The notes below the pieces were generated by a model that was not told the DNA's origin, ran no database searches, and saw only the letters and a list, made by a program, of their open reading frames with translations. Below, one piece after another: positions 1-64,000 of a stretch of 64,000 bases of DNA. Both the position numbers and the translations under genes were made by a program. Source of the stretch: Heterotrichella gracilis (taxonomy: Eukaryota; Sar; Xanthophyceae; Tribonematales; Xanthonemataceae); contig JAULBX010030041.1 of assembly GCA_032358255.1 (NCBI GenBank), positions 120,614 to 184,613 of the forward strand, written 5' to 3'. Position 1 is the stretch's first letter; every line of letters begins with the position of its first letter.

Positions 1-2725
1 ATGCTGCACCCCTCCTCATCATCATGAGTGCAGCCCTGCTGGGGTGGGCGGTGACTGCTGCTGGCGGGTTTGGGCCCATGCTCTCGACACCCAGCCAGTT
101 TGCTGCGGGAGGGCCGAAGGCTGGCCAGTTTTGGAAGGTTTTCTTCCCCTCTGTGACTGCCAATGTGGGCTTCTGGGCCACGCTCAGCCTCAACATACCA
201 GACTTCACACGGTAGGTTCCGCGAGCACAAATACGAGTAAACAAAAGGTTCCGGTGTATATACTATCACCCTGATAATAAATATGGGCCGCTGGGCCTCC
301 TCAGCCTCAATGTACCAATATATACATCCTGATACTCTGTATTCACAGCAATGGGAGGCTCCAGTCCCACCCCATGCCCCACCACCCACCACCCCCTGGC
401 AGGTTCCCTTCCCCTCGGTGACTGCCAATGTGGGCTTCTGGGCCACGCTCAGCCTCAACATACCAGACTTCACAGGGTAGGTACCGCAAATGCAGATATG
501 CACAAACAAATATATAGATACTATGTGGGCCTCTTGGCCACCCTCGGCCTCGGTATACCAACACATGCATTACGTATATATGGTGATCGCTGCGGGTGGG
601 TGGGTGGTGCGTAGGAAGCATTGGCCAGGCTGAAGCTTCTCACTGCTGTAACTGCTGTAAATTTTATGCAGATATAGGAATGGGAGGCTCCAGTCCCGCC
701 CATGCCTCCTACGCACCACCCAACCGACCGCAGCGGTCACCCCAGCTGTCCCCTTGCCCCACCATCCACCACCCCCTCCTCCCTTCCCTCCCCTGAGCAG
801 GGATCCAGCGTGACCCCCTGGTGGGATAGGCAAAGTGGACCCCCATGACCAACCTCCATCCCTGATGATGGGGGGCACCTTAACTCCCACCCCACCCCAT
901 CACATCACATCAGCCAGCAAAACTGAGCATCCCACCCCATTCCCTCCCCCTCTCCCCTCCCAGGTACGCGCGCAGTCAGCGGGACCAGTTGGCAGGCCAA
1001 GCCATCGGCCTCCCCCTGTTCATGGCGGCATTCACGTTTGTGGGCCTGGCCGTCACCTCCGCCACCGTCTCCATCTATGGCTACCCCATCTCGGACCCCA
1101 TTGTGCTGCTGGGGCGCTTGGAGGGATTCCTGCCCATGGTACTGTCGCTCACAGGTAAGGAAATGAAATGAAAAGAAAAGAGATTGTGGTATGTATCATG
1201 TAAGAAAACAAATTAGAAAGGAAGTAAAACAATGCAGCCTGCCACAATACCGCGCATATGCGTACGTATATGCGTATTTAATCAATGTTGATTATAGTAA
1301 AGGATTGAGCAAACAAAGAGGGCATTGCTCTCCTGCCCCCTGTGTATATGGCGGTCCAACTTTAGGAGCTGAATGCAATGAGATGGTTTGTGCAACCCTC
1401 TATAATATGCCTGCAGGTTTGTTGTTGGCAACCCTGTCCACCAACATTGCGGCAAATGTGGTGGCGCCAGCCAACGCCATTGTGAATTTGGCCCCCAAGA
1501 GCATTTCCTTCACCACGGGGGGCATTGTAACTGCCCTGATTGGCCTGGTCATGATGCCATGGAGGCTCATCCAATCGACACAGGTGTGCTGCAATGGTTA
1601 TTCTATTGGAATTCGAAATAAACACAGTACACAGTAGGGCACAGTACGAGATATTCATACAATGCTTGAGATGTGTGCTGGTGCAGATTCTATTCTTAAT
1701 TATAAAACAGGATGTTGGGACAATGTCATTTGTGTGTTCAAAGCTACCGACAATGGTCTGCGCAACTGGGCAGGGTTTCTTTTATAAGTGGTATCTGCTA
1801 ACTGTGGCAGGGTTGCCAACCCGGGGTGTCATTGTCGTTCATTGCATTGTATGTAACCAGGGTTAGAAATCCATTTGCTGACTGTGTCAGGGCTTCATTT
1901 TCACGTGGCTGATCGGCTACTCTGCGCTCCTGGGCCCAATCGGCGGCATCATCATAGCCGATTACTACATCGTCAGGGGCCGCAAGCTGGACATTGATGG
2001 CCTGTACAGCACAAGGGCGTCAGGACCTTACTGGTATCAGGTGGGTGCGGTGCTGGGTGGTTGCATGCGCATGACCTTAAAAGTCAGCAATGGTTTAGGG
2101 TTTTGGGTGCCATGGTGCACACAATTCCTTCATTGGTGAGGCGCGATCCTGGCTGGTTGTGCTACCATACGTGAACCAACGCCACTCCCTGCACTGTGGG
2201 CTGGTCATATGCAAAGGTGCACGTGTCCGGAATTTACTGATATGAAGTGTTTTTGCCACCGCAGCCTTGCCCTGTGCATTCTCAGTGTGTCCCAGGTAAT
2301 TTAATACATAGCAATCAAACGCACCATGCTGGCTCATACACATGCATACGTGTTATAATGGAAGTGGGATCATTCAGGCAAAATGACTGTGTGCTGCATG
2401 CTCCTTGCGTATTATATCTTTTCTGAGCGGACTGAACACGCATGGATGCATGTGGCAGACTTTCCCGAAATTGATTATATAATTATTCTGTGATCTGTGG
2501 TAGGGTGGCTGGAACTGGGCTGCCCTCATCGCGCTCCTTGCCGGGGTGCTGCCCAGCCTGCCGGGGTTCTACAACGCGCTCACCTCCTCCCCAGTCCCCG
2601 CCATTTTCGTCACCTTGTACTCCTTCGCCTGGTTCGTGGGGTTTGGCGTGGCCCTGGCGGTGTATGCGGCGCTCATGGCGGGGGCAAGAGGGCAGCAGGG
2701 GGTACCACTGGGAGCTGGAGCGTGA
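1..2725 (+). CDS. NCS1-family nucleobase/allantoin transporter (5' end outside window)
   Basis: Membrane symporter of the nucleobase-cation-symport-1 family, which imports uracil, purines, allantoin or related compounds; the substrate cannot be read from sequence. Exons by splice phase: <3-211, 964-1154, 1417-1583, 1891-2040 and 2504-2725. Visible family segments are TPSQF, the [20 protein letters not shown] helix, [21 protein letters not shown] and the helix pair around [12 protein letters not shown], followed by two more hydrophobic stretches ([12 protein letters not shown] and the segment from VPAIFVTLY). All five exons join in frame and end at a TGA. The N-terminal half, including the first helices, lies left of the window. 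The closest plant relative known to me is the plastid transporter PLUTO; that assignment is inference. A spare copy of part of the first exon lies in the first intron (403-476). Family assignment is confident; substrate and location are not. Confidence 0.85.
403..476 (+). repeat. Duplicated NCS1 exon segment, candidate mutually exclusive exon
   Basis: This segment nearly repeats bases 138-211 of the upstream exon and keeps both a splice acceptor (GGCAG before it) and a GTAGGT donor after it. Its translation [17 protein letters not shown]... differs from the first copy only at the edges. If the first exon ended at 137 (a weak AAG|GTTTTC donor), this exon would replace the original in frame. 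Including both would shift the frame. More decayed partial copies are visible near 284-325 and 526-566. Confidence 0.7.
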
Positions 2726-3754: not shown

Positions 3755-7343
<3,589 letters not shown>

Positions 7344-19858: not shown

Positions 19859-21622
19859 CTAATCAACACCCAAGATGCCCAGCAGGAGCTTGCGTGCAAC
19901 AATGACCAGAAAGGTGGACAGCTCGCGGAATGGAGCAAAGTCCTCATCTTGGGCGATGAGCAGCTCCAGCCGATCCAGCTTGCTCACATTGAACCTGGTT
20001 GGTGGGAGGTGGCGTAGGCCCCATTGTCCCCGAATATACCAGTCAGCCGCAGCACGCTGCCACTGGCTGATCAACGCCTCCGCATCCCACCCCTTTCCAG
20101 CCCCAACAACTTGTTCCACCAGTGTTGTGAGGGACTCCAAGTACAGTTGGCGCCGGTCGCCTTCGAGGCGCTCCTCATACACCATGACAACATCCCTCAT
20201 TTCGCCCACTGGTGCAACCCCTTTCTGCCAGAAAATGTGGTTCAGTATGCACGTCAGTGGCTCGTCTGTCAAGTGGAGCAGGTCCACCACCAGGAACATG
20301 TATGACAGTGGCACCTCAATCTTGTACATCTCGCTGCCTGCGTCAAGGTCATCATCCCTGAATTCGGCACACAGCTCCTCGTAACTGGCTGCGGCGCTGT
20401 TGGCTCGGCTGCCTGACACATCAGCCAGGTTGTATGGTGTTGGGGAGTTGCCACGCGATGCACTCTGCAAGAAACAATCCAAGTGTCATTTCAAGAAGAA
20501 CAGCGCAGTGGTCCCTGGCAAAGGAACATGGAGCAGGTTGCTGGGCCTGATTAGGGGGTTGGAGGAAGAAACGCACAGCTTGGCCACTTGTAAAACCCTT
20601 CGCCATAGACCCTAAACAGGCAGCAAATCTACACAGCTAGCTGAGGTACAGTTGGTTGCCACGGCTGACTTGCTCCCCCACACAGATGCCTGTTAGGAAG
20701 GCGATAGTTATTTATATAATTTAATTGTGACTAATTGCTGCCAGGCAACGCCACTGCACCCTTGGTGGCAAACCCTACCCCCACAATGACCTCGTCAACA
20801 CCCCCCACCCCACCCACCTAACCCCACCCCACCCACACACACACCTCCAAAGTCAAGTGCATCCACCTTGCGCCACATGCCACCGGATCAGCAGGCGCAC
20901 CGGTGGTGTGGTGGTTGGGCCCGGCGCTGCTGTGTGGCCGCAGGGGTGAGGGGGCCGGCAGGCTAGGTGCTATCTGCGGCAATGGGTTGGGTAAATAATG
21001 CACCTGATGATATGACAGTTATTCAGGCAACGACGTCTGCTGCTGTGTAGGTTGGTGTGTTTGAAGAAGGGGGCTGTAACGCCCAGCTTGACAGGAATGA
21101 AAGTCAAATATATCTCCAAGAATTGGGGGTGTTAAGCAACACCAATATTGGGAACGGTGCATAGCTAAGTAGCCAAACAGCGTAACCGGTAGCTGCGGGA
21201 GTTACCCCGCAATGTCGTCAAGGTGACCTGAGGAACCATACCTTAGCTAAGGGTTTTCGTAGTAACCTGTTACAGGGGCTGGGGAGGATGGGAGAATGGC
21301 GACGTTGCAGCGTGACAGAAATAAAGGACAGGAATTTCCTTGTGCATTAAACCATATGCTATTTTTAAGAACTGCACACAGCAGTGACAATGGTGTCTGA
21401 CCAGTGTTCTGGGTCACAAGGAGACCTTGCAAGCTTAAGCACCACCTCCAGCCACCGCACCCGCACCTGCTGCCCCTTGAGGGCCAGTTCAGCCAAGTGC
21501 GCCTGGAGCTGCTGCTCTCTGCGGGCAAGGTCAGCTTGTCTCGCGTCAAGGTCCTCCTTTCTGTACTCGAGGCAGTACTCCCACAAGTCCAGCCTTTGCT
21601 CCTTCAAGGTGTTGATACGCAT
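19859..21622 (-). CDS. Unrecognised protein with N-terminal coiled coil
   Basis: I do not recognise the family. Proposed exons: 21622-21467 (coiled coil with LDARQADLARREQQLQAHLA), 20973-20845 (Pro/Ala-rich linker) and 20464-19859, all joining in phase 0 for about 296 residues. The last exon, 201 codons, is the best supported. It is a helical region with YKIEVPLSYMFLVVDLLHL, WQRAAADWYIRGQWGLRHLP and a hydrophobic C-terminus (TFLVIVARKLLLGILGVD) that could be a buried helix or a tail anchor. The first exon is one of two tandem copies. Sequence 5' of it contains frame breaks relative to the other copy, so the real gene may start elsewhere, or its 5' part may be decaying. Confidence 0.45.
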
Positions 21623-23240
21623 TTGCCTACGCTTATCTGAATCAAACTGCTTCGCCTTTGGGCAAAGTCCGCCTGTTGCGTGGCAAGCTCCCGCTCCCTG
21701 TGGGTGAAGTTGGTCTGTTGTGCATAAGCTCCTGCTTTAGTTGAGTGAGGCCAGCCTGCTGCGGGTCCAGTTCCTGTGCGTGGACAGCCAGTGTCAACAG
21801 ACAACTAACAGGGGGCAGTGGGAACAAGGCAATATAGGCAGCTCTTTTATACCTGAGACCCTATAACTAGGCCGTAAGGTGCTTACAGTCCACCAAACGA
21901 TGCGTGTACTGGGCACCATAATGACACATAATCCCTACAACTGGACCTTGCCCTATGTTGCGTGGTTCTAACTGCACACCAGTGCCCCGTCTATCAAGCA
22001 ACCCACACCAGCATGTATCCCAGCAGCAGGCTGAAGCAGTTTGGTATACTTTTAAGATAAACCCCGTTTTCATACTTACTTCCTCACTGCTGAGACCTTC
22101 AAAATTGTCCACGTGTACGGCGTGACATTGTTGCTGGTCCTGCTTGGAAGGCTCGTCAAGAGGCGCCTCATGTGCATCGTTGTGGTCACTGCCAGCGTGG
22201 TCTGGCAAGGGAGCCTGCAAGAAGCCGACCCAGTGGTTTGCGCTTTTCAGGTCACATGATACACATGGATTTCCTTGCGCACCAAACCCATCCAGCCAAG
22301 GTGTTTCAAAAGGTGTTGTGATCTGCATCAAGCAGTGACATGGTGTCCGACTAGTGTTCTGGGTCACTGGGAGACCTTGCAGGCACCACCACCAACCATC
22401 CCTCCCGCACCACACCCGCACCTGCTGCCCCTTGAGGGCCAGGTCAGCCAAGTGCGCCTGCAGCTGGTGCTCCATGTCTTCAAGGTCAGCTTCTTTGTCA
22501 TCAAGGCCCTCCTCTCTGGACCTGAGGAGGGACTCTACCGTGCCCAGCCTGAGCGCCTTCTTCTGGCTGGCACCCATTAATGAATCAAACTGCTTCGCCT
22601 TGTGGGCGAGGTCGGCCTATTGCGAAGCAAGCTCCTGCTCCCTGTGGGTGAGGCTGGCCTCTTGTGCATCAAGCTCCCGCTTCAGTTGATTGAGGCCCAC
22701 CCGCTGTGCATCCAGTTCCTGCAGCTGTGCGTAGACATATATATATATCAGTATGTACATATCAGCGCAGCCGTACGTGGACCTGTACAGCCAGCGTCAG
22801 CAGACAACTAACAGGGGGTGTCAGTGGGATTGAGGTATTGAAGGCTGGTCTTTAAACCTTACACCTTAAATTCTAGACCCGAGCCAATTTACTTCACCAA
22901 AGGATGTGTGTACTGGGCAATATAGGTGACGCTTAACCCCACACAGTGCCCACCACCAGACCCCTGGCTCTTGCCCTCTGTGGCAGGGATACGGTTTTAT
23001 ATATCCCCTTGCTATTTTTCTATGTCTCTATCTTTAGGACCAAAATTAAAATATTGGTCTAAATCATGTACTATATCCACACACCAGTGCCCGGTCTGTC
23101 AGCTAACTAGTATACCCATGTCTGGCCAGCAACATCATGTATCCCCGGTGCAGGTCGAAGCAGTCTGGTATACTTCCAGGGTAAGTGTTTCCTTAACTCA
23201 CTTCCTCATTGCTGAGAGCTTCAAGGGCTTGGCCACGGCC
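21467..23240 (-). repeat. ~1 kb tandem duplication of a coiled-coil exon region
   Basis: Matching landmarks on the minus strand: the exon end coding LALKGQQ before a GTGCGG donor (21467 and 22422), the sequence GACAACTAACAGGGG (21799 and 22802), TGTACTGGGCA (21908 and 22910) and the exon end coding GLSSEE or ALSNEE before a GT donor (near 22080 and 23202). The offset is about 955-1120 bp, varying by indels. Confidence 0.75.
22422..22760 (-). pseudogene. Second copy of the coiled-coil exon, interrupted by a stop codon
   Basis: The heptad-rich reading (ELDAQRVGLNQLKREL, ASLTHREQELASQ) meets an in-frame TAG where the sister copy reads CAG (Gln). After it the reading continues as ADLAHKAKQFDSL and ends in LADLALKGQQ before a splice donor. 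The sister copy (21467-21800) has no stop here but carries two single-base losses that shift frame. Neither copy preserves the full ancestral reading. It could be rescued only if splicing skips the damaged parts. Confidence 0.55.
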
Positions 23241-26003: not shown

Positions 26004-26052
26004 CTGTGCGACAACATGTCGCTGTTGCGGTGCACCATGAGTTGTAATCCGC

Positions 26053-29000
26053 ATGGCATCAAGTGGCCATGGTGTTCACACGGATCATAAAAACAAAAAT
26101 AGGGAAGAAAATAGAAACCAAAGGTGTGCACATTGCGGCGTAGCAAGAACGCATACTCTGCATTTGAAAAATCGTGCAGTATCTGATATCACGTTGTTTG
26201 AGTGCGCATCTCTGCGCCATCGACCACCCAATCATTTGCTGATCACCATTTACAGGCCTGCCAAGGCCGCCAGGTCAGCGGGCCAGCCATCCACCACCAG
26301 CCAACCAGCAGCCAGCACCAGCCAGCCAGCAGCCAACCAGCATGCAGCGTGCAAGGGGGGAGTGCTAGTGTGGCTGCGCCAGGACCTGAGGCTGCATGAT
26401 AACCCCGCCATCCACCACGCTGTGCTGCATGCCAGGCGCAGCGGGGGCCATGTGACCTTTGTGTACGTGCACTCACCGGAGGAGGACGGGGAGGCTTTTC
26501 AGACAGGTGCGGGCGCAAGGAAAGGGTGGGAAATGTTGATTTTTGTGCTATTATTTTACTGTATAGGGTATGTGTGATGGCTGGGGCCTGTTAGGGGTTT
26601 GGTCGTATAAAGGGATTGCGTCTGTTGGTAAAGATAAAGCAGTGGCATGCAACCTGTGTCCTACATGCGCCCAAAATCTAACCCGCGCTCAAAACCCTAA
26701 CAGGTGCCCATACCCTACAGGCACCTCCTGGCGGCCAGCAGGTGCCAGCCTGCTGTGGATCCACCACGCCCTGGCATCCCTGGATAAAAATTTGCAATCC
26801 CGGTGGGGACCGGGTGCATCCATTGTGTTCCGCCAGGGACCCTACTCAGCTGTGCTCCTGAGTGTGGCCCAGGCTGTGGGTGCGGAGGTGGTGACATACA
26901 ATAGACGATATGAGCCGGCTATGAAGGTAATAATGGGGTAACCTGAAAAGTGCTGTGCATGTAATAGCCATGCAGGTAAAATATGGTAATTAAATTATAA
27001 ATCATGAAATGGCCATGAAGGTTGAAGTTGTGAATGCGTTTTGGGGGTTGTACTACTGATACTGATATTTCCAGGAGTCGTTATGAGTTTCTGTTTATCA
27101 CAGCGAAGGAAATTTAAAGCACCCTTGGTACTCAAGCCACCAATGTGCCATCATGATCTCCGAGCTATTTAAATAGTTTAGGAAGGTCAATTTTTATCGC
27201 TTCACTATGCTTATACATCCACACCACCACCGGCACGCAGACCACCGATGTGCTCGTGACCTCTCAGCTGGAGTCATGTGGTCTGGCGGTGCACAGCTTC
27301 AACGCGCTGCTGCTGAGGGAACCGGAGGAGGTACGGGTGGACATGCGCAGCTGGAGCGGGCACTTTGGGACCCTCACGCCCTTCCAGAGGTGCGTGCTGC
27401 AGCCCAAATACTTGTTGATACCCTGTTGAGGGTCGAAGATATAGGCGCTTATGGAGTTCATTTTAGGGGTCAGGCGCCGGGTGCGAGGTGAAGTCTTCCT
27501 AGTGTTTTAAGATTGGGGATTAGGGTTTTGGAGGGGCGACGGTGCATGTGCAGCTAAAGCATGCTTTTTGGGACCCTCACGATTTCCACAGGCACGAGGC
27601 AAAACCCTTTCCTCACTTCAGGGTTTGCCACGCACCCCATCGCGCTGCTCATATATGCGTGCTGGCACCTTGCCTTATTGCTTGTAATCCAATATCTGAC
27701 ATCTTTGTCCATCCCCGCAGGGCATGTGAGAAGCTGGGCAAAATCCCCCGTCCACTGCCCACCCCCATCACCATCCCCGTGGCAGACTCCTCCCCTTGTC
27801 AGCATGCTGGCGGTGTCCCCCTTGCTGCCCTGGGCCTGTCCCGCATGCCAGTGACAGCTGAGGGTGAGGTGGTGGACTGGGCCGCACCCATACTGGGCGC
27901 CTGGGAGATCAGTGAGTCAGCTGCCCTGCTGCTGCTGGAGCGGTTCATGATGACAGGTGGGTATCTGCTTCCGCCTCGAGGCACTGTGTACAGTGTCGAT
28001 TACTAATCCTAAACCCTGCACTGCTGCTCCTGGAGCGGTCCAATGACGACAGGTGGGTTGTATTTCAACCCTTCCGTGTCAAAAATTCCGTCGCTCAATG
28101 TGGCATATTTTACTGTACGAAATCAATCTCATTGTGCTGCTTAATTGGCCCCCATCAGGTGCTTGTTGAATAGCCCATTCTATATCTTGCACACATGCAG
28201 CATTATATTCACCTATATCTACTCCAATACAATGAATTGCCTTAGTGCTTAGGCTGAAGCATTCCCTGAATCAAAACTGTAGCTTTGTAGCCATTGGGCA
28301 CTGGGAATCATTGGTAGCATCAACCCCCGCCAGTATAGAAACCAATATTCGATTTATTGCAAGCCCGCGTTCTGTATTGATGTTGTGATTACCCTATCTG
28401 TGACCCGCAGGTCTCGGCAAGTACGAGGCGCAGCGCGGTTTTGCGGACGGGCGCTGCGTGTCTCACCTGTCTCCCTACCTCCACTTTGGCCAGCTGTCCC
28501 CTCGCACCATGGTCCAACACATGGAGAGGCACAAGTAAGGACCATGGCACAGCCTTTGTGTGTGTCTGCGACATCTGCATGGTACACATGTAATGGGAGC
28601 ATGCCACGGGCTTGATGCGCGAGGGCACTTCAACTTGATGCCAATGCGGCACATATCATAGCACCAGATAGCACCGGCTTACCTTCACTTCGTTTGCTTT
28701 TTGCCTTCACTTTGGCCAGCTGTCCCCTCGCACCAATTGGTCCAGCACTTGAAGAGGCACAAGTAGAGGGGGGGCATTGCATGATGCACAAGGCACATAG
28801 CATCAGCACGGTGCACATCGAAGTTGCATGGCATCTTTGATGCATGCACACTGAGGAGCATGCTGGTGCTGGTTTGGGCATGTCTGCATGAAAGCATGCT
28901 ATAAGGTACAACCAGATCAATAATGGATGATCAAGGGGGATTCGATACTGATCAGGCATGGATTGTTCTCACACCCTCTGCACCCCCATGTGCAGCTGCC

Positions 29001-31557
29001 GCATGGTGAGCAAGACCTTCTGGCGGCGCCTGGTGTGGCGGGACCTTGCCTACTGGCAGCTGCACCATTGGCCAGCCATGGCCAGGGAGCCAATCAGGGA
29101 GCACTATGCGGCACAGGTGGGGGCTGCTGCATTTGAAAGGAAATACTGACTTTCATGCATCTGTTACTTTGATATGCATTTCACTGGGAGGACATGTGCT
29201 GATTTTCTCAACATCTGCCTCTACCTTGAGCATGGGAAACTAGAATAGGGCGCGTTTGTATTGCTAGCTAGTTAGCAGCGTATTGTGTTGGTAGTTCCAT
29301 GCTTGATTTTATGAAAAACAAAACGAGATTGAATTATTTTACAAAGTGGGTTTTGGCTTTTCTATGCAGGAGTGGCGCAGTGACAGCACCAAGGTGAAGA
29401 AAAACAGCATGATTTTACAAAAACGATTCGAAATTGGACTTTTTTACATTATGTTGGCTGCCCTGTGCAGGAGTGGCGCAGTGACAGCGCCATGGTGCGT
29501 GCGTGGCAGCGGGGGAGGACTGGCTTCCCGCTGGTGGATGCAGCCATGCGCCAGCTGTGGGCCACGGGCTGGGTGCAGCAGAATGCGCGCATGGCTGCAG
29601 CGTGCTTTCTGACTGAGTACCTCAACATCCACTGGGTGGAGGGGGCAAGGTGGGGCAGCGGCACTACCATTCGCCCTACTTTGCTTTGAGCATATACTGG
29701 TTGCTGCAGCGGGCATGTAGGGATGTGGTTTTGGTGTGGTCAAAATAAGAACAAAAGGACCATATATAGGGCTGGGTGCAGCAGAATGCGCGCATGGCTG
29801 CTGCCTGCTGCCTGACAGAGTACTTAACATCCACTGGGTGGAGGGGGCAAGGTGGTGGGTGGAGGTAGCAGCACTATTGGCATGGCGTGATTGTAGTGGA
29901 CCAAAAATATGGAATAACAAGTAAACAATAAAAAATGTTGTCTTGAGAGCTGGGCGCACATGGCGTGCGTGCGCTTCTGGTTGTGTACCTCAACCAGGCT
30001 GGGGAGTCAGTTTGTTCATTCCAATTGTTTCATTTTTTGTAGAGTTGATTCGACGACACACTGGTGGCTGGACCTGTGGAACTTTATAGGGTTTAGTGTT
30101 CAGGCGCTGGACCTGAGTCCCTAAACCCTGAACCCTAATTGCTGTGCCCAAACATGCAGGTGGTTCCACTACACGCTGGTGGATGCTGACCTGGCGATCA
30201 ACAGCATGATGTGGCAGAATGCAGGCAAATCGGGGCTGGACCAATGGAACTTCACCGTTCTGCCCACCTCCCAGGCCCAAGACCCCACTGGTGCCTACAT
30301 CAGGCAATGGGTCCCCGAGCTGGCTGGCATCCCCAACAAGCACATACACTCTCCCTGGGATGCGCCGCACCATGTGCTGGAAACTGCAGGTATGTGTGGT
30401 TGGGAAAATATGCACCTACTCCCGGAACTGTCGGGGGGCTCTCTCCACACTTTGAACTTTCTAGAATATGCAAAGCCCTCTGTCAACAAGGAACTGCACT
30501 GCTTACACGCATACGCATGTTGCGACGCCTGCAGGGGTTTGCCTGGGGGTTGACTACCCGCACCGGATAATCACCCAAGATATGCGCCAGCTCAAGGGGG
30601 AGAACACAGCGGCGATCCTGCGGGTGCGAGCCGCGGTGCCGCACTGCCGCGATGCCGCTGGCTATGATATGATCACTACACCACAGGTAGGGTTTCGGGA
30701 TGAGGGCTTAGGGTTTAGGGTCTGCCGCTGACTATGATGTGATCACCACATCACAGGTGAGGTGTGCCGATGGATGTGGTCTAGATTTGGCACTGTAAGG
30801 CCGCCATCTGCTTACTCCTGGGATAGTAATTTTGCACTGGGGGTCGATGGAGTACGGTGCTGAGGCCATGTGATCCACTCCATACTGTGGGCCATGTCGG
30901 TGCTCCTCCTGGCTTTGGGTTAGGATTTCAGGATTAGGTTTAACGGTTTGAGTCAACACCATGTATAGATTTGAGCTCTGCCCTGCTGGCATGATGCGAC
31001 CACCAAGATGCACACACACTTGGTGCAGCAGGCAGGTGCTGGCAGCTGACCTGCAATGCTTGGGCTCTGCAGCGCTCTACAGTGCACACAGCATGGGCAG
31101 CCCATGAGCGTGTTCAACAAACCCCAAACCCTAGAACTTAAAACCGTACACCCTATACACCTCTTGCAGGGCTCTAGGGTTGCACAGGACGGGCAGCGCA
31201 TGCAGGTTTTCACCAACCCCTGACGCACAAACCCCATTCCTACCCTAAACCCTAAACGATGCGCCGCAGGGCTCTACGGTGGCACAGGACGGGCAGCGCA
31301 TGCGCGTGTTCACCAAGCCCGAGTATCGCAAGCCAGCCCAAGCCAGTGGCACTGCATCGGGCACCATGGGCAGCAGTGAGGCGCCTACTGGTGCTGCGCC
31401 TGCTGTGGCATCACATGCACGCAAGGTGGCAAGGCGCCAGGTGGCGCGTGCGCAGCGCACTGTGGGTACAGCCGGCAATGCGGTGAGGGGTGCTGGGAGG
31501 AAACGCGTGAAATCTGGCTCGATTGCAGGGCTGCTATTTGGTGGTGTGGTTAAATAA
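26053..31557 (+). CDS. Photolyase/cryptochrome family flavoprotein
   Basis: FAD-binding protein for light-driven DNA repair or blue-light sensing; which of these is not decidable here. Exons: 26053-26506, 26721-26926, 27241-27389, 27721-27956, 28411-28534, 28996-29116, 29471-29649, 30160-30389, 30535-30686 and 31270-31557; all phases agree, about 712 residues. Antenna (Rossmann-like) domain: VLVWLRQDLRLHDNPA, then RQGPYSAVLLSVAQAVGAEVV. FAD domain: HLSPYLHFGQLSPR, FWRRLVWRDLAYW, RTGFPLVDAAMRQLWATGW, ARMAAACFLTEYLNIHW, TLVDADLAINSMMWQNAGKS and RQWVPELAGIPNKHIHSPW. The Asn in DLAIN sits where photolyases carry the Asn near flavin N5 (my alignment). Unusual ends: ~98 residues precede the core, and a basic C-tail (RKVARRQVARAQR, GRKRVKSG) may be a nuclear or DNA-binding tail. 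The start is the first ATG of the open frame and may be wrong. At least five exons have partial copies in flanking introns. Confidence 0.85.
27561..27592 (+). repeat. Intronic copy of photolyase exon 3 end
   Basis: Repeats the TTTGGGACCCTCACG segment and following bases of the exon edge at 27362-27395 about 200 bp downstream, with point changes. Confidence 0.6.
28015..28058 (+). repeat. Intronic copy of photolyase exon 4 end and donor
   Basis: Repeats the exon end coding LLLLERFMMT and the CAGGTGGGT donor (27917-27962) about 100 bp downstream, with substitutions that change the coding sense. Confidence 0.75.
28703..28766 (+). repeat. Intronic copy of photolyase exon 5 end and donor
   Basis: Repeats the end of exon 5 (28480-28536; CACTTTGGCCAGCTGTCCCC and GAGGCACAAGTA). 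The copy's donor position reads GTAGAG in place of GTAAGG, and an ATGG has become ATTGG. Confidence 0.8.
29365..29396 (+). repeat. Intronic copy of photolyase exon 7 acceptor
   Basis: TGCAGGAGTGGCGCAGTGACAGC at 29366 duplicates the acceptor and first codons (EWRSDS) of exon 7 at 29466, about 100 bp upstream. Both are usable AG acceptors. Confidence 0.8.
29770..29855 (+). repeat. Intronic copy of photolyase exon 7 end, frame-shifted
   Basis: Repeats 29567-29653 (GWVQQNARMAAAC ... EYLNIHW) with the donor. A one-base loss in GAGTACTTAACATC, compared with GAGTACCTCAACATC, breaks the reading. A third, shorter and more decayed copy follows near 29949-29998. Confidence 0.8.
30721..30762 (+). repeat. 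Intronic copy of photolyase exon 9 end and donor
   Basis: Repeats GATGCCGCTGGCTATGATATG...CCACAGGT (30651-30688) about 70 bp downstream with several substitutions and a TTTAGGGTTTAGGG run between the copies. Confidence 0.75.
31063..31220 (+). repeat. Two intronic copies of photolyase exon 10 acceptor and start
   Basis: Segments at 31063-31130 and 31163-31220 repeat the acceptor and first ~15 codons of the last exon (31262-31320; GGCTCTACGGTGGCACAGGA). CCCTAAA-type motifs lie between the copies. Period about 100 bp. Both copies contain stop codons or frame changes. Confidence 0.75.
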
Positions 31558-31627
31558 GGGCTTTGGGCTATAGGCTAGCTACCAACCGCCGGCAGCCTTT
31601 TGGCTGCCCTGCACATGCGCAGCAAAT

Positions 31628-43471: not shown

Positions 43472-45345
43472 GACAGTGCCTCTCAGCATGGAAATCCACA
43501 GCATGTATTTGTGGGTCCCTGCGACAGGTGTGAGTGTGATGTGATGTATCCAAATGGGTTTTTTGGGCATGCCGTGAGAAAGGGATGTTGTCGTGATCAT
43601 TCCGGATAGTTACCGCCTTGCCAAGCGGCTTGTTACTGCATATGCATGCTAGATGAGTCTGTCCACCCTTTGTCCTCAGTTATGCGCGACAGGTTTCCAA
43701 TTTATTGCGCACGTGTCAGGCCCTGCTAGGTTTTGCCGTGCGATTTAATGCAACCTGTACAGGGCATTTTAGTCAGAAATTGCAACGCTTGTTACAAAGC
43801 ATTACCTGCGCTGTCACTGACTTTCAAACAGCCATGGTGACAGGCATTAGCTACAATATTTGAACATGTCAGTAATTTTTTGTACAGTAATTAGAAGTTT
43901 ACAGAAACCATTTTTAAGTACAACTCCCAAGAAGGGCGAGGGAGGGCCACACCTGTGTCCAACGAATCAAAAAAGGGAACACAATGCAGTGTGGAATGGC
44001 CCTCATGGCCCGGTTCTTATGCTGACATTGTATACTCTCGTGCTGTTCATGCAAAACATTTGTACCATGCATCACTGGTGACGTTGGCTAGCATGTGCTA
44101 TCATGGCGAGCCTTTTTGAGAGCCACTTAATTCACTTTGCTGCAGTGGTGGCACCACAACTTTTGCAGTGTGCGGTTCGAGTTGAGTATTGCAGGATTAA
44201 TGCTAGCTTTGGGTCTTCAAAGGCAGGGTTGCAGCCCTTTGCTGCTTATTCTGCAAAACCACACATTCAAGGACACTTTGTGATTGCATTCAGTGCACTG
44301 AATGCAATCACAAAGTGTCCTTGAATGTGGGGTTTTGCAGAATAAGCATGATTGTCCCTTAAAACCCTAGGCTAGGGTTTCGAGCTGCCACCTGGTACCA
44401 AACTGCATGTAGGATGGGGAACGATGCACACGGTGTTGGGCGTTTCTCCGCACCGCTTAACCTCGACCTGGGCGTCACAAGCCTGCATAATTCGCCAGAG
44501 CTTGGTATTGTCTCTCAGTGGGGCCGGGTGTGCACTTGATGTCCTGCTGGGGGGCAGCAGCAGGCATCGTGGGGGGCATTGTCATCGTGCCGTGACGGCC
44601 TTGTGCAAGCAAGCACTCCACGCAACTCTCCAGGGTTTTCCTCGGCCAACAGGTAAGCATGCTTCAAACCGAGAGTGCTGCTTCAGCTTAGGGCCTTCCC
44701 TCTGACTACACCTTGTGGGCGGAGCAGTGCATGCATGCCGACACTTGTGACCCCCATAGGCGAAAAAGCCTACACGTGGCGTCAAAAACACTACTTGACT
44801 GCCGCCTACCGCTGTTTAACAATACATGCGGTACTGAGAGCGCTTGCTGATACCTTGATAGGTGAACGAAAGCAACCTCGGGGGTGTTTGTGGGTACTGT
44901 TAGTCATGCACATGTATCCCACATGCCTAGCTTTTTAGCCGGGCATGGACGTGTTGAATGGCAAAGCACGTAAGCGTTGTCCCTTTGCTAGGTCTAGTAG
45001 CTTCGTATACGTGCTAGTGTGGGCGTGCATTGTCCGATCCACAACTGCTCTTAGGGCGAAGTGCTATGGACCTGTGCGCTTCTGACACAGGTGGCAACCT
45101 TGCCCAAATGGTAGCCGACGTCAGGTACCTGCTTTCCTATGCCTGTGGCGCTACTAACGACTTCAATATACCACTACTCGCTAGGCTGCTGTGTCAACTG
45201 TTCCCGCAGGCTTTGAGCTAGGTGCACAGCAGTGGGACTCCCCCCTCCTTCCTTGGACCACCCTGCCACCCACTAAAGCACTTATGGGCCTGCAGGTAAA
45301 AAGGCATTAATGCACACCTGAGCCTGGTCTGCTTTGTCTGGAACC
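43472..45345. other. Intergenic, 1.9 kb, with a long hairpin
   Basis: No gene recognised except the near-perfect 104-nt inverted repeat described separately. Confidence 0.5.
44244..44347. repeat. 104-nt near-perfect inverted repeat (52-bp arms, no loop)
   Basis: The two halves are reverse complements across 52 positions with a single A-G mismatch (44261/44330), centred on CAGTGCACTG. A transcript would form one long hairpin; the DNA could extrude a cruciform. It lies alone in an intergenic region. Possible readings are a small-RNA precursor, a foldback element or a recent inverted duplication. Confidence 0.9.
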
Positions 45346-52454: not shown

Positions 52455-53107
52455 CCTACCGGAACCTTCGTGCTCAACAGTTGGCTGCAGGGAACGCGAT
52501 GAACCCTTTATGTTTATAGCAACACTCCAACTTACTGGCAAGCTAGCAAGAGACACACGACAACGTTGTCAACTCTTAGTCAAGAGGGGGGTTGGCAACG
52601 GTGCCATTCCACGGCGAATCATTGTCTTGTGAACACCCAGTTGTTGTACTCAGCCAAACTAAAAGGCCAACAGGTTAATCGGCAAGCTGTATTGCACGCT
52701 TTGCAGTATCCAGCTTTGTTTATATCCAGTGGGTTTACCGATGACTGCTTATATGTATAAAGCAATAGTCCCTGGACCCAAACCTTTTGGCAAGTAGGAG
52801 GTCGACTCGAGTCTCTTTTTGAAATCAAGACCTTCACTCCCGCCTTCACTCGAGTGAAAGACTCGTCGGTGTCATATTGACAGCTGAGGTCAATAGCTTT
52901 GAGGCTCAATAAACAAGTCCCCAATTACACATTGGGTGTCTTGAAGGCTTTGGGCATGCCTTGGCATGTCGTGTCATGCAGGCGGTTGCATGCACATCAA
53001 ATACATAAACGGTGAAAGACAAAAGCACGGCCTTGCTCAACATCCATGACACCATCTGCCACTGCCACAGCAGATCCAGTAGCCAGCAGCTTGCTGAGGC
53101 CACTCCG
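52455..53107. other. Intergenic
   Basis: ARL2 promoter and 3' flank of the channel gene. A 14-bp palindrome, TTCACTCGAGTGAA, lies near 52846. No gene recognised. Confidence 0.45.
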
Positions 53108-56100
53108 CTACCAGGTCCCCATCTCCACTCCCTGTGGGCTTTGTTCCCTGGGTGGGCTTTGCTCCCTGGACTCTGCCTCCCCCTGCTCATACTCCCCCTG
53201 CCCAGCGCCACCCCCTGACGCACGCAAGTGCAGCACATTCACCGTCGCAGCCCCCAGATTCTTGACCGCCTGGCCTATATTCGCAGTTGTGGTCTGGCCG
53301 ATGTTCCTCAAATTGCTGCCCAGATTTTGCAGCATCTCCTGGGTGGCCTTGCGGCTGCCAAGCTCCGGCATCTCATCCAGCACATTGAGCGAGGGCAGCA
53401 GGCGCTTGCAGCCCAGGATGTGCAGGTAGTGCTGGCGCTCAGAGGGGTGCACGCCGCGCATGAGCTGCTGCACCGCCAGGCGAGCGGCATCGGGCAGCAG
53501 CAGCACCATGTCTGGGTGCTCCTCAAAGATGGTCTGTAATGAAAACAGACAATGGAGTCATCATTGTATGAGACTGTGTGCAATGTCATGCCTTGTCCAC
53601 GACCTAAACCCTAGTAAAATCCTAACCAAACCCCAACCCCAAACCCCAGGCCATGGACCAGCAGCACCATGTCTGGGTGCTTCTCAATGGTCTGTTGTCA
53701 AAGCAGCCAATGGAGTCATCGTTGTGGGGACCCGGTGCAAGGCCAGGGCATGGATACATGTGGGTATGGCAATGGAGCATGAGTACATGCCCAACTATCG
53801 TGCAAATGCAGGGGTGCGACACGAGCTGCAATGAGTCCTGCGCAAAACGTGCGCAGTCCTAGACAAAGACAGCCTTCCAAACGGAGCTACAGCATGTTCC
53901 TGTGCTGGAAAATGATATGTTAAAATGATTTGAGAAAAGAATACGCTTGTGCTCACCTCAATGATGGACAGGGGTAGCTGCCACAACTTGCAGAAGCCAT
54001 GGGCGCGAATGGTGCATGCCCATTTCTCCTGCGTCTTGAAATGCGCTGCCAGCACCAGGCATTCACCCAGGATGACGGGAGAGGACAGCATGATCTTGGC
54101 GCCATCGTTACAGGTGGCAATCACCTTGCCTTCCTGCAAAATGCACAACCACGACCACTCAGGACTCCAGTACATGGAACATGCAAGAACAGTAAAGGTG
54201 GCTCATTGCAGTGAATAGTCAGGAGAGTCATTGCAGTGAAAATTCATAAAAATCACGTCTTGTCAATACATGGAACATCTTATGTTGTTACAGAATGCAC
54301 TGGATTGTCAAATCGTGCATGCGTAGCTTTGACAATGCATGGAAAGAGACTGGGGTGCCCCAGTGTTTCCCCCCAGCTTGCACCAAGACTTGATCCATGA
54401 CCATATATGGTATATACCCCACTGCCAGGTCGCCTTACCTGCAGCACCCAGATGCAGTCTGCGTCCTGGCTGTACTGGCACACCGCCTGGCCCGGCGCCA
54501 GCGCCACCATCTGCATGTTGGCCACCATCACCTCCTGCAGCGTCGACCCGAACGCCGTGAATATGTGGGATGACAGCAGGATGTGCTCCACCGAGCTGCG
54601 CGACACGTCCGCCTGGAGCTTGGAGGGCAGCTCATTGAATATGGCAACCTGTGACATGCCACGGGGTTTCAATGACTGTAAAATTCCAGATAATTGAGCA
54701 GGGTAGAAAACAACAGAAGACATGAGGATAGGAAAATCTAGAGGATTATGTGGAGCTTGATGGCAGGTTGTAGATCATGGCCGCTGCTGCAGATTAAATG
54801 GTGCCGGCATCTGGCAGGGTTTGTGAAGACCCTTGTAACACATCCATTTTACTGCTAATAACCCATTATTTTGAATATTATACTGTGTAAATTTCGTAGA
54901 ATATAAATGATGTGCTGTTTTATCTATCTATTTAATGTGTTTTACCTGGCTGTATTCATGCTGGTGCACCCACACGGAGCGGTAGTACTCTGCGATCTGG
55001 CGCTGCACCGGCGCAGGCAGCTTGTTCTCATGCAGGAAGCGGTCCACCTCCCGCGACTTCTCAATGTACAGACGCGAGCGCTTGGCGCGGGTGGTGGCGT
55101 TGGACAGCACCTCCGCCATCACGCCCACCATGAAACCAAAGAACATGACGCCGATGAGCTGCAGGGGCGCAAAATTGTGTGGATTATGTTGGCCAAGAGT
55201 CCTTTGTGACGTAACTTGAGGGCATGCAGGGGAGGAGGATTCGTCTTTCACATGAAATTTATCTTGCAAGATAATTGCCTGCGACTGGCAAATGGGCAAT
55301 GCATTAGGCAGGAAAGACCCTGGCCCCATATGTGCTGTCAAACCAAGATCAAAGGTTGTACTTTTCCTTTGCTGCTCCCTGCGCACCTCCTGGCACACAC
55401 AACGTACCTGGATGCACATGCTGAGGCCGCGCTCCAGTGAGTTTTGTGGCACTATGTCTCCGTACCCCACCGTGGTGATGGTTGTCATGATGTAGTGCAC
55501 GGCTGCAAGGTACTTGTCGCCATTGGACGCACTGGACATGTCCTGGGGAGACGCGCGTGTATAAATAAAATTGTAGGATATGTTTCTTTCTTTGGGAAAT
55601 TGACATTCAATATACGCAGCTTATCATACATCACTGCTGTTCATTTCTGAGCATGCCACATGGGTGTGCACCACAAGCAATGCACAAGAGGCTACCCGCG
55701 ATCAGGCGTGGCATGCAAAATGCCCGTAGCAAATCCGTTACGTGCGGCCCATGGCTGGCAGGTGGCAGCAGCAGCACTGACAGTGCATTTAAGCAATGGA
55801 TACAGCAGCAGCAGCAGCACTGCAGTGCATGTATGCAGTGGACATATAAGTACTGGCTGTGCAATGCATTGCATGCATGCTGCGCAGGGCCTACGTTTCC
55901 CGCCACTGACGCCAGCCAGCTCTCCTCAAAGCCCCTCCACTGCGCCGCCCAGTACCACATGCACCCAAAGAAGTTGACCAGCACCATGCCCATGTAGATG
56001 ACGATGGTGAGGTAGTAGCCGCCAGAGGACAAAAACCCAATGGACTGCACGGAGACAGCCAGCTCCAGCAGCTCTGAGATCAGCTTCTTCAACCGGAATA

Positions 56101-59259: not shown

Positions 59260-62200
59260 TCATTGCCCCGCAGTGAACTTGGCTGCCGGCTGGCCGGGCA
59301 GCGCCGCTGCGAGCAGGTCCCCGCCCACTGCCTGTGCCTGGGGGTCACTCGTGTGCATCACGCTGATGCTGTCCAGCTTGAGCGCGCGCAGCAGGTAGGG
59401 CGTGTTCTCAACAAGCAGGGCCGCCTCGTCAAAGGGCAGCTTCACATCCAGCACCTGCGCAGCGGGGTTGGTAGGGTGAGAACCGTGCCCAGATATATCT
59501 CGCACATTACATGTGATGGTGTGCGGCAGGAGGCGAGAGCAGGTTGCAGAGGCAAAGGGATATAGCAAGTAGTGCGAGTTTTCCACCAGCAGGGCCGCCT
59601 CGTCACAGGGCAGCATCACATCCACCACCCGCGGTGGGAGGAGATCATCCACAATAAAAGCAGCATCACAGCATGTATCATCTTGATCATGGTGCGCTAC
59701 GATATCTGCTATCTACAGCCCCTGTCTCAGATGGTCCCGATGTCACCTGCTTTGCATGCACACTGCACCCGGAGCACCGTGCATAGACTTTGGGGTCTAC
59801 GTTTTAGCCCCCCAAATCCCACCCCCCCACCTGCGCGCCACCCTTGACCGCCTCGTCCATCTTGTACTTTGCAAAGGGCATGACCGTCTGCTTCTGCTGC
59901 TTCTCGGGCACAGCAGCCAGGGAGGGCTCCCCCTTCACCCCCTCCAGCACCCGCTGCATCACGTCGGAGGGGAAGCGGCCGGTGGCGGGGTCGAAGGCGG
60001 CAGACAGGGTGCGCAGCACCGCCTCCTGCCAGCCCCCAAACTGCTCCGCCACGCAGATGGTGCCGTGCGTGACCTGTGGGGGGTGGACGGTGGTGGTGGG
60101 TGGAGGGGAACGGATGGGGTTGATCGGGACCCGGTGAAAACATGTTTAGGTTTAGTTGTCTTCAAGTTGGAAAAGTAGTCATTAGGACATCGAAGCGTCA
60201 CAATTTTAGGTTTCAGACTTGAGCTGAGTTGTTGACCCATATCCAATCACAGCAAAGTCCTATCGGTCCCACCCATACCCACACCCACACCCATGCACAC
60301 CACCACTCCTCCCACCTTCACAGGAGGCGCGGGTGGCTCCCCGCCCTTCTTCTTCTTGGGTGGCGCCTCGGCCTTGGCGATCATTTTCCGGAACGATGCA
60401 ATGTGGTCCTCGATGTACAGGGATGCTCGTTGCAGCCCAAAGTCAGGCTCGGAGGCCTTTGGCCAGCCAGCCTTGACCACAAAGCCCTGCTTCTTGAGCA
60501 GGTTTGTCCAGATGTGCTCGCAGGTATGCGGGCAGAGCGGGGTCAGCAGGAGGGTGGCCACCTGGGGAGGGACAAAAACAAAAGGTTGCATCGTTACATG
60601 ATGAAAATTTAAATGATGCAAAATGATAATGAGGGGCGCCTACACGCATAAAATGCTGCGCCACTGACTGCAATTGTGAATTGTACATTGCATTCATGCA
60701 GCTGTAACGACAGATGACCACGGCCCCCACCCTCTCCCCCACCAGCACGACAAAAGTGATATGTAACAACTTACATAAATTATGATTCACCAAAAGGCAT
60801 GACAACCCCAGCGTCAGCTCCCAAAACACCGCGGTAATCTTAATATAGTGCACCGCCCCCTTCTTTCATCCCCACCCCCGCCCTCATGCCCCTCACCTCA
60901 ATGTATCGCAGCGCCAGCCCCCGGTGCATGCCCTCGGGTCCGCACGCAAAGCGGTACATGTCGCGCGCGTTCTGCAGGTCAAAGCACCCCCGCTTCAGCG
61001 CCTCCCGGAACAGCATGCCGTCATAGGCCTTGCGGGTGGCGGCAACTGCCACGTCCATCTCGTTGGAAAACACCCTGTGGAAGGGAGGGTGAGGGAAGCA
61101 CAGTTAGGCGGGGGGTGAAGGGAGTGTAATGCTTTGCTTGTGCCAGCCACAACCACAGCCACAGCCACAGCCACAGCCACAACCACAGCCACAGCCACAG
61201 CCACAGCCATGTGACTGAAGTAACACCCTGCATGTGGAGGGGGGGGGGGGGGGGAGAGGGGAGAGGGGCCAGGCCTGCCTCCTATCCCGTTTCAATGCCC
61301 CAGCCATGCGTCTCCCCCCCCTCATCCACATCCACACACCCACATCCACACACATACCCACACACACCCACACCTGTCGCTGAAGCTGCTTGCCTCCCCG
61401 TCCCTCAGGGAGTCGATGGCCGCCAGGGTCTCCTCAATCCATGCCAGCTCCTTGGTCAGGCGCAGGATGGCGCCGTTGGCGGTGGTGTGCACAAAGTTGG
61501 CGTCGTCCATGGCGTCACCTGCGGTGGGGTTGGTGGGGTGGGGATTGCATAACGGTGGGCTCATGTGGTGGATTTGGGTGAGCTGGCAATGGGCGAAGCA
61601 GGAGAGGGGCAAGTGTTGACATCAGTAAAAATGGGATGAGTGCGCTGTAGCCAAGGTCACATCACTGTGTGTTGCCTTCGGCGCCCTAAAACTTGGCAAC
61701 ACACCTAAATCCTGAAATCACAACCCCTGCTCGAAACCCACACACCCCCACTGCACCCACCTGCATCCGCCAGCGCGAACCGCATGGCATCCGCGCTGTA
61801 CTCCTTCACCGCCTGCTCCAGCGTCTTGAAGTTGCCCGTAGATTTCGACATCTTCTCGTTGTTCAGCAGCAGGTGCCCATTGCATCGGAAGGAGGCGGGC
61901 CACTTGGCCTCGGGCCACATGGCTGTGTGGTTGTACAGGCAGAAGGTGAGGTGGTTCTGGATCAGGTCCTTGCCAGACACGCGCAGGTCGAAGGGGTACC
62001 TGTGGGGGGGTGGAGTGGGGGTTGGGGGGTGGGGGTGGACGAGGTCCTTGCCTGAAAGGCGCAGGTCAAAGGGGTTACTGTGGGGTGTAGGGAGTGGAGT
62101 GGGGGGTGAGTGGTGGGGGGTGGATGAGGTACTTGGAGGGAACCAATGAATAATGGAGAAAGGCGCAGGGGGGAGGGATGGAGAGAGGGGAGGAGGGAGG

Positions 62201-64000
62201 TCTTACCAGTAGTCAAACTCCCTGCGCATGGCCTCCAGGGTGTGCGGGGGGATGGCGGTGTTGGTGGGCAGGGGCCCGTCCAGGAAGATGTAGTCCCACA
62301 TCTGGAAAGGGGGAAAGGGGTGTAAAGATGTGGTGACAGGTACATATAGTGTGACAGAGGAGCAAGTGTGACTGCCAGCATCCCTGCACTCTTTTAAGAT
62401 ATGGCATTTTTCAGGCATCCCCCCACCAGCCCGGTTTCTGACCTCACGCGGTGCGCCCTCTGCACATATGCCCTCCTGCTTGAGCGTAAGGTTTTTTTTA
62501 TAGGGTTTCCTGAAACCCTACCTCGTGTGTGACATCCTCTGGGCGGATGCCCTCGTGGTCACGGCCGTAGATGTCCCCTTTTTGCAAAAAGTGAGCCACC
62601 GTGTAGTAGGCCATGTAGATGGTGGAGTCAGACAGGGACTCGATCAGGTACTGGGGGTCCCAGGGCAACCTGCAACACATCCCAAAATAAGCTTCCAGGG
62701 ATTGATGAGGTAACTGGGGCCCAGGGCAGCTTGCGTCAATGCAAAGCGGTGAAGTGTGGCAGAGGCTTATAGCTACATGAATCCCACTGCAATGCATTCC
62801 CATTGCAAGTGCACGCCTTGTGTCAATGTGCACACGCGCAACCCACGCCTCATGCCACCGTGTAGATCCACCGCCACCCCACCACCTCCATCCCCACCCC
62901 CGCACCTGGTCCCCAGCCCGAACGACCTGCTGCAGGCCCACTGCTTCAGCCAGCCCAGCGTGTGCTCAAAGCCATGCCGCGTCTCCTCCCCGTACATCTC
63001 CATCCTCTTCAAACACCCCTGGGTGGCCTCGGCCCACTCGCCCTCGCCATAGGTGAGGTACCATTGGTCGGTCAGCGCCACCACGCAGGCGTCCCCTGAT
63101 CGGCTCATGACCGGCTTCTCGGGCTCCGAGTAGAGCATGGCGTCGCCCGAGGCGATGAGTTCCTCCTTGATGACCGCCTTGACGTCGCTCACCTGGGTAG
63201 GGATGGTGGTGGGGCGGTGAGATTGGATCAACGAAAACATTCGGTGGATGTGATGTAATAATGGATATGTGAGAGCCACCACACAGGCTGAGTGGCTTAT
63301 CCCGGGCTACTCTGGGCTGAAAAATAAAATGTGACTTTGCCTGAGGCGGTGAGGTCCTCATTGATGACGGCCTTTGCATCGCTCACTTTGGGTGCGTTGT
63401 GAAAGGAGGTGTTGAATGCAATTGGGTTACCGTGCAATGAGATTGGATATGATTCATTGTCATGACTACCTCCTTTTCCCCCCCACAAGCCAAATTTGTT
63501 TTTCATTTATCTAAAATCTTTTATGCACAAATATCTCATTAAATACAATAAACAAATATTTAATTTGCAAAGACACCCACCTTCTTGCCCGCGTATGGCC
63601 CCGCCACCATGACCCCGTCCGTGAATCCCTTGAGGTACACCATGCCCTTTGCCTCCTCCAGCTTCTTGGTGTCGTTCTGGCTCTGAATCTTCAGGTCAGC
63701 ACACACCTTCTCCGCGGCCTTGTTGCCAAACCCAGGGATCTCAATGATGGGGATCACCTGCAAGGGAATAGAGGGTTGGAAAACCCCCAGGAAAACCCCC
63801 TGCATTCCGACTGAGCATGTCCACTCCGCTAATGCCTGCATCTGCACCCCACCCACTAGCCTCACATGTATGCAATGTCCTGGGGCACCAAGGGCTTTAA
63901 ACCCCATCACTCCCACCACCGGAAATCCGAAGGGTAGCGATATTTTTCGAATTTCCCTGAACTTTGCGACGGGATAAAATGGGTAGCACGAAAGTGCGGT
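59260..64000 (-). CDS. LARS: Cytosolic leucyl-tRNA synthetase, C-terminal two-thirds (5' end outside window)
   Basis: Charges tRNA-Leu with leucine. Exons seen, in gene order: 63757-63581, 63192-62906, 62669-62522, 62301-62207, 61999-61761, 61518-61374, 61074-60897, 60561-60316, 60073-59831 and 59454-59260, all in phase. Editing-domain parts: [56 protein letters not shown]. Catalytic core: [37 protein letters not shown] and the ATP motif [12 protein letters not shown]. Anticodon-binding helices follow: [15 protein letters not shown] and [12 protein letters not shown]. The spacing of KMSKS, the C-terminal KKKKGG linker and [15 protein letters not shown] match the eukaryotic cytosolic enzyme, not the organelle form. 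The HIGH motif lies outside the window. Three introns carry copies of exon edges. Confidence 0.92.
59560..59635 (-). repeat. Intronic copy of the leucyl-tRNA synthetase last-exon start
   Basis: Repeats 59390-59458 (exon start coding [21 protein letters not shown]) as [21 protein letters not shown]. The copy keeps an open frame but lacks the CAG acceptor. Confidence 0.8.
61143..61209 (-). repeat. CCACAG hexanucleotide minisatellite in intron
   Basis: About ten CCACAG or CCACAA units in a leucyl-tRNA synthetase intron, followed at ~61239-61252 by a run of 14 G. Typical slippage repeats, likely polymorphic. Confidence 0.9.
62041..62100 (-). repeat. Intronic copy of a leucyl-tRNA synthetase exon acceptor
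   Basis: Repeats 61963-62020 (acceptor and first codons [12 protein letters not shown]). The copy reads AGTAACCCC where the exon has AGGTACCCC. Confidence 0.75.
63336..63396 (-). repeat. Intronic copy of a leucyl-tRNA synthetase exon start
   Basis: Repeats 63139-63200 (exon start [17 protein letters not shown]) as [17 protein letters not shown] about 200 bp upstream. Confidence 0.8.

Follow-up and report, generated by a model that had tools for sequence, protein, structure and literature searches.

Repeated exon edges in a 64-kb window

The DNA analysed here is a stretch of 64,000 nucleotides (the window), positions 120614-184613 of contig C749 in the 68.5-Mb genome of the xanthophyte Heterotrichella gracilis (903 contigs), and it holds a series of genes in which blocks at the edges of exons are repeated close by, in several instances with telomere-like TTTAGGG repeats between the copies. 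Seven pieces of the predicted window proteins match Pfam families, and these matches back the presence of an NCS1-type permease, a thiolase, a photolyase, an EF-hand protein, an ion channel and a class I tRNA synthetase. The original prediction, drawn from the letters of the window, had named six genes as carrying such repeats, and all six do so in the predicted gene models; the Pfam matches bear out the names that it gave them, save that they do not extend to “leucyl” for the synthetase or “potassium” for the channel.

The exon models come from a gene finder trained, with no RNA, on 278 kb of the same genome, and every exon edge in this account is a predicted one. The finder settled on the donor CAG/GTRRG and the acceptor TGCAG/G, with a median exon of 138 bp and a median intron of 271 bp; the G+C content of exons is 62.7%, as against 50.9% for the rest. 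In the NCS1 gene it merged both copies, and the exon ends that it predicted there (164/403) are unreliable. The sole junction that was checked, 29649/30160 of the photolyase, which lies beside a copy, gives a joined protein that aligns gap-free to solved cryptochromes. The repeated edges are listed below, with the strand of the gene and, in brackets, the identity between copies.

132-245, plus strand: NCS1-type permease (Pfam PF02133), exon end and donor, repeated at 397-510 (87%), with a partial further copy at 523-560
4950-4993, minus strand: thiolase, acceptor edge, repeated at 5094-5137 (80%), with telomere tracts at 4980-4999 and 5018-5059; the similarity may in part be that of the telomere repeat itself
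5260-5325, minus strand: thiolase, exon edge, repeated at 5350-5415 (92%), with telomere-like repeats at 5330-5369, between and inside the copies
6386..6651, minus strand: thiolase, acceptor edge, repeated with a period of about 117
11937-12010/12222-12294 and 12105-12193/12312-12403, plus strand: 3' end of the EF-hand gene (Pfam), interleaved duplications
27342-27378, plus strand: photolyase, exon end, copied to 27545-27581 (81%), with telomere-like sequence just before the copy
27921-27962 (donor 27957), plus strand: photolyase, exon end and GTGGGT, copied to 28016-28058 (88%), with CCTAAACC at the junction of spacer and copy
28478..28765, plus strand: photolyase, exon end and GTA, copy at 28704-28765 (90%), 166-bp spacer without telomere sequence
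29301-29396, plus strand: photolyase, acceptor edge beside the real one at 29407-29497, 10-bp filler (76%)
29566..29855, plus strand: photolyase, last 84 bp of an exon and GTGG, copy at 29769-29855 (92%, one base deleted), spacer of 115 bp free of telomere sequence; the remaining intron holds no other match
30653-30688 (X1, donor 30687), plus strand: exon end, repeated at 30723-30758 (X2, 89%) around a 34-bp telomere-like filler at 30689-30722, the clearest case of the window
31068..31320, plus strand: photolyase, acceptor edge three times with a period of about 97, telomere tracts at 31119-31153 and 31242-31257
53498-53567, minus strand: ion channel (Pfam), acceptor edge, copied to 53659-53725 (86%), with telomere-like sequence in the spacer 53568-53658
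59390-59459, minus strand: tRNA synthetase gene, 5' part of an exon and CGCAG, copied to 59564-59633 (86%), no telomere sequence in the spacer
61950..62135, minus strand: tRNA synthetase gene, acceptor edge in tandem (78%)
63145..63386, minus strand: tRNA synthetase gene, 5' end of an exon, copy at 63339-63386 (83%) that begins at the splice site, no telomere sequence in the spacer

Comparison of the window with itself over distances of up to 2 kb, at 30 bits or more, returned 37 direct repeats and 1 inverted repeat, and the five dinucleotide shuffles of the window gave 0, 0, 0, 0 and 1 direct repeats, which rules out a chance origin. Under strict limits (at least 36 bits, length at least 30 and spacing at least 40, all pairs below these being dropped), the window retains 31 direct pairs in 21 clusters and no inverted pair. 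We then used a sample of 278 kb made up of the window, 190 kb in 19 further stretches, one of which adjoins it, and eight 3-kb loci. As these eight loci had been selected through matches to a spaced donor-like pattern, and so do not form a random sample, they were excluded from the count of orientations, which over the remaining 254 kb stands at 106 direct against 2 inverted pairs. The proposal that a persistent local duplication process, and not chance, is at work is upheld.

The full 278 kb yields 116 pairs in 84 clusters, 21 of these in the window, with a spacing of 66-1,338 bp (median 182). Pairs of at least 88.5% identity outside the window have the anatomy X1-spacer-X2, in which the spacer is generally not repeated after X2, so that the pattern is not one of plain tandem duplication. 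The exceptions are tandem pairs in stretch L025, where pure tandem cases exist (5684-5925), and nested pairs in L013. The spacing of copies looks two-humped, with peaks near 90 and 210 bp (ranges of about 80-120 and 200-230 bp), and the density of repeats is very uneven: the 10-kb stretches L009, L019, L020 and L021 have none, L013 has ten and L018 nine.

Telomere repeats at the duplications and at splice sites

For the content of the spacers we took the best pair of each cluster and removed telomere-rich copies and spacers of less than 5 or more than 350 bp. Telomere-like (TTTAGGG) words are present in 22 of the 59 clean spacers so obtained; the null expectation is 9.6 ± 2.7, and none of 500 replicates reached 22. 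The outer flanks of the copies have no such excess (9/49, null 7.6). With a stricter score and with telomere-rich copies kept, 17/70 spacers pass, as against 6.4% of controls.

The same coupling is seen when telomere tracts are the starting point. Direct flanks accompany 31 of 130 tracts (4 of the 134 lacked full flanks and were dropped) and 4.6% of 2,000 control sites, and at that score none of the 130 has inverted flanks. The share with direct flanks goes from 6/44 through 8/36 and 5/23 to 12/27 with increasing intactness of the tract, a rise that is expected if array and duplication arose together.

A 24-base telomere array has 215 + 214 matches in the genome, overlaps included, and its backwards control has none; a series of these matches opens contig C70, as would be expected of a chromosome end. 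From the list of matches we took, in order, 49 internal arrays with 24 or more perfect bases (L028-L076), skipping those at contig starts, which adds 35 kb around telomere arrays to the 278 kb. At a score of 34, 24 of these 49 intact arrays lie between direct copies of 27-84 bp, and 5.5% of 800 control sites do so; with the threshold one point lower, the figures are 27/49 and 6%. Inverted flanks occur at one array (L069, C67:57985-58705, score 70), beside a 19-bp direct duplication. Among the 27 flanked arrays, 12 lie within 6 bp of both copies, with X measuring 19-62 bp. The simplest case, L038, consists of 27 bp, 24 bases of telomere repeat and then the same 27 bp (24/27 bases alike); L041, L050, L051 and L067, by reading, show several rounds. 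Other simple arrays have direct flanks in 2/19 cases, and the fragility of any simple repeat is an unlikely cause, although the number is small.

Leaving out at each end the 11 of 49 arrays with imperfect ends, we found a preferred register at the start of the arrays (GGG in 16/38, p = 1.6e-5). Priming by telomerase is thereby suggested, not proven, since the ends of the arrays have a preferred register as well. The telomerase domain PF12009 has two neighbouring matches on contig C626.

Telomere-like tracts are present in 94 of 460 sampled introns and sit closer to exon edges than do non-coding positions picked at random (median 34 vs. 104 bp, leaving out tracts in exons and 2/49 arrays without a predicted edge). 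Once the 9/134 tracts and 17/49 arrays outside predicted introns flanked by exons are set aside, 33 of 125 tracts lie 3-19 bp past a predicted donor, where an even spread over the same introns would give 9.3; the excess on the acceptor side is weak. A genome-wide count that makes no use of the gene finder points the same way: the donor-like motif AGGTRNG with a telomere word in the next 15 bases has 1,022 G-rich and 663 C-rich matches, and the mirror order, with the telomere word before the motif, has 252 and 156. This is a fourfold difference (1,685 vs. 408), for which the mirror order serves as the control, the motif being short, some matches overlapping and not every match being a donor.

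In the introns of the sample and around the 49 arrays, tracts no more than 50 bp from an acceptor have the C-rich telomere strand as the sense strand in 23 of 31 cases (p = 0.011), as though this strand acted as a pyrimidine tract or branch site. The bias near donors is not significant (31/54, p = 0.34).

Exon-edge preference and fate of the copies

In 73 of the 116 pairs at least one copy extends over a predicted exon edge, and positions shifted along the sample give 45.3 ± 4.6, none of 400 reaching 73; exon edges are therefore preferred, as had been proposed from the window. Exons shorter than 25 bp were dropped from the analyses of spacing and of edge position. By class, the 84 clusters comprise 52 at an edge, 19 pairing exon with non-coding sequence, 8 wholly non-coding and 5 pairing exon with exon. 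At 22 of the 27 flanked arrays, one or other copy of X is in contact with a predicted exon; for a single random interval of equal length, placed where it would be tolerated, the expectation is 15%.

With whole-exon copies omitted (26 of 94 crossings), the boundary lies anywhere inside the copy, uniformly over the 68 single-edge crossings that remain (p = 0.14), which excludes an exact cut at the splice site overall and lends no support to the idea of a system that copies exon edges as such. Among the 28 crossings of at least 85% identity, the copies contain more exon than intron sequence (p = 0.0012), perhaps because introns decay faster. A reading of the coordinates of the 27 flanked arrays puts the end of X that lies in the intron 2-12 bp downstream of the donor in 11/12 cases and 3-28 bp upstream of the acceptor in 10/10. 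These counts take one value per exon edge, without second predicted copies of the same exon, and leave out L041, where the predicted strand looks wrong, and L033, where the exon model does.

For the fate of the copies we kept the 57 of 116 pairs with a clean split into exon and non-exon. Substitutions per codon position 1/2/3 amount to.112/.089/.174, and 35 of 41 indels are not multiples of three and break the frame; both are as expected of a neutral, dead copy beside a selected exon with silent change. Judged by their sequence, the intronic copies are dead. The frame-breaking indels rule out functional alternative exons, so that the in-frame alternative exons of the original prediction are not a general outcome. 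Its decoy splice sites fare better: they can result from such events because copies often retain a donor or an acceptor, any use of them in splicing being a candidate function.

Some further repeats of the window are of other kinds. At 21369-23224, inside a large predicted gene that includes stretches resembling BTB and LRR sequences (named by eye), there is a tandem duplication of about 950-1,100 bp with 72-77% identity, far larger than the other events. Predicted non-coding DNA at 44243-44348 forms a 106-bp palindrome that is 98% self-complementary, and 582-741 is a weaker palindrome of 160 bp (76%). The region of the tRNA synthetase gene holds an array of the hexamer CAGCCA in 11 copies (61144-61209).

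Probable break repair and other possible origins of the copies

We consider it fairly probable that the copies are scars of DNA-break repair, left by staggered breaks near splice sites, fill-in of the ends and joining, often after the addition of telomere repeats. A staggered break of this kind would have one nick in the exon and the other a few to about 35 bp into the intron. Fill-in of both ends would double the stretch X between the nicks, and joining of the ends around a filler would yield two direct copies, X1-filler-X2; in a considerable proportion of cases TTTAGGG repeats would first be added to an end by telomerase. The exon copy would then be kept by selection and the intronic copy would decay, and events that split an exon would be lost, leaving the survivors to be seen at exon edges. 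Of this picture, the anatomy, the direct orientation, the telomere filler with its coupling to the duplications and its position next to donor-like sites, and a telomerase domain in the genome are observed; the staggered nicks, the fill-in, the activity of telomerase and the part played by selection are inferred.

Several observations weigh against this reading. Telomere-like words are missing from 37 of the 59 clean spacers, and two young pairs, at 28478 (90%) and 29566 (92%), have telomere-free spacers for which a search of the genome finds no match beyond themselves; pairs without telomere-like words may be copies pasted at a distance and not X-filler-X. At a score of 34, 25 of the 49 intact arrays have no direct flanks. 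Array ends, too, are in a preferred register (after GGGT in 13/38, p = 5e-4), which simple priming does not predict. The orientation of telomere repeats relative to the gene is without overall bias (64 vs. 68), the G+C content of exons might by itself steer breaks, and the youngest cluster of L013, which extends across an assembly gap of 100 N, could be artefactual.

The repair of breaks by templated insertion in end joining, of the polymerase theta type or by synthesis-dependent strand annealing, would copy a nearby stretch and paste it at a distance. It could cover the telomere-free pairs and is compatible with break repair by fill-in; the unmatched 115- and 166-bp spacers of young pairs speak for it. 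Templated copying should yield inverted copies as well, and this is at odds with the preponderance of direct pairs; nor does it predict telomere arrays tightly between copies. In rice, insertions copied from within 200 bp of the break are described (PMC7407515). Overall we regard templated insertion as an unlikely origin of the copies, if one to be taken seriously.

A bias in retention, with inserts landing evenly in introns and those near splice sites kept since G-runs at donors or C-rich tracts at acceptors aid splicing, would fit the C-rich sense strand near acceptors. It is improbable given the lack of a significant orientation bias near donors and the same fourfold donor-side excess in both orientations genome-wide.

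Somewhat less probable still is random local tandem duplication combined with ascertainment, in which exonic events are purged and edge pairs are easier to recognise through the conserved exon copy. The uniform position of the boundary accords with it, as does L025, a pure 121-bp, nearly all-intronic tandem duplication; some of the small number of clusters whose identity exceeds 95% are likewise nearly intronic (L025). Simulations in which random events were rejected if both ends fell in an exon, and the remainder decayed, gave 27-32% edge clusters and 60-70% wholly non-coding ones over five settings. Set against the observed 52/84 and 8/84, these values indicate that exon edges are over-represented beyond what selection and decay provide, and the frequent contact of X with exons at arrays and the genome-wide donor-side excess of telomere words also tell against this explanation.

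Intron gain by tandem genomic duplication of AGGT exon segments, where the new intron runs from the GT of the first copy to the AG of the second, shares with our data the direct duplications at AG/GT sites and the exon-derived sequence in introns. It predicts that donors align with acceptors; the aligned predicted edges are 10 donor-donor, 9 acceptor-acceptor and 0 mixed, and more predicted intron follows the second copy (e.g., L075 and L042). With 0/19 mixed we reject it as very improbable. Least credible of all is a mobile element carrying telomere repeats and making long target duplications, which X-telomere-X does resemble, since the closest X-array-X inserts hold telomere repeat only, in both orientations (e.g., L038, L049, L064 and L075), and two of the non-telomeric spacers, those of the pairs at 28478 and 29566, are unmatched elsewhere in the genome.

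Break repair with telomeric filler has known relatives. In primates, rodents and horse, short interstitial telomeric sequences were inserted at double-strand breaks, with telomerase proposed as the agent (PMC2246262, PMC7215372). These resemble the present arrays in being telomere repeats at break sites, sometimes with a target duplication; the H. gracilis arrays are likewise internal arrays of the telomere repeat with direct duplications far above control. The duplication accompanies 4.6% of insertions in rodents, 16% in primates and 4.5% in horse (duplication alone), scored against empty sites, as compared with the 24/49 intact arrays with direct flanks here, scored without empty sites, and the inserts of H. 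gracilis differ further in clustering beside splice donors. A review of interstitial telomere repeats in seed plants puts forward break repair as one potential origin of short stretches, and a word search of it does not meet “intron” (PMC8621592).

The patch-mediated double-strand-break duplications of rice (Vaughn and Bennetzen 2014, as summarised in PMC7407515, section 4.3) are short duplications, in tandem or with inserts, ascribed to asymmetric nicks and subsequent end joining, and the present copies are of that type in being short and direct with inverted ones nearly absent; telomere filler and a preference for splice sites go unmentioned in that section. Intron gain by tandem genomic duplication, the subject of PMC4974935 and PMC3443670, likewise involves direct exon duplication beside AG/GT, whereas in H. 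gracilis edges align like with like and the introns seem to predate the copies.

A third relative concerns the fill-in itself. At chromosome ends CST works with telomerase, and its action with telomerase here would link fill-in duplication and telomere addition. According to the abstract of PMC8355091, CST-guided polymerase alpha-primase makes small tandem duplications at 3' overhangs, where fill-in at breaks with complementary overhangs, followed by end joining, doubles a stretch; the breaks were induced, in human and mouse cells, and telomere addition does not figure in that abstract.

Among the literature matches listed (titles and the starts of abstracts), none describes telomere inserts that sit next to splice donors and have long direct flanks, and a search combining telomeric repeat, intron gain and target site duplication was without a match. 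The phenomenon is of a known kind, and its frequency, the length of the duplications and the preference for splice sites look new.

As to the cause of that preference, selection for splicing signals, the G+C content of exons and transcription-linked breaks are all candidates. We tentatively raise the possibility, doubtful as it stands, that the breaks are tied to splicing: nicks would arise immediately after the splice donor and, to a lesser degree, ahead of the acceptor, perhaps where RNA:DNA hybrids bounded by U1 on the nascent transcript come to an end, and telomerase and fill-in would heal the gap, marking splice sites genome-wide.

No dedicated exon-copying system was found in this analysis; the copies look instead like remnants of break repair with partly telomeric filler. 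As such they would be a material source of exon-like debris, decoy splice sites and intron growth, and the share of sampled introns with telomere tracts suggests that in this alga telomerase often joins in the repair of ordinary internal breaks. If the breaks are indeed tied to splicing, their repair, coupled to transcription and based on telomerase, would be a route by which copies of exons enter introns; and if the preference for splice sites is mutational, the sites of transcription-coupled breaks would become testable from genome sequence, with the inserts as datable markers.

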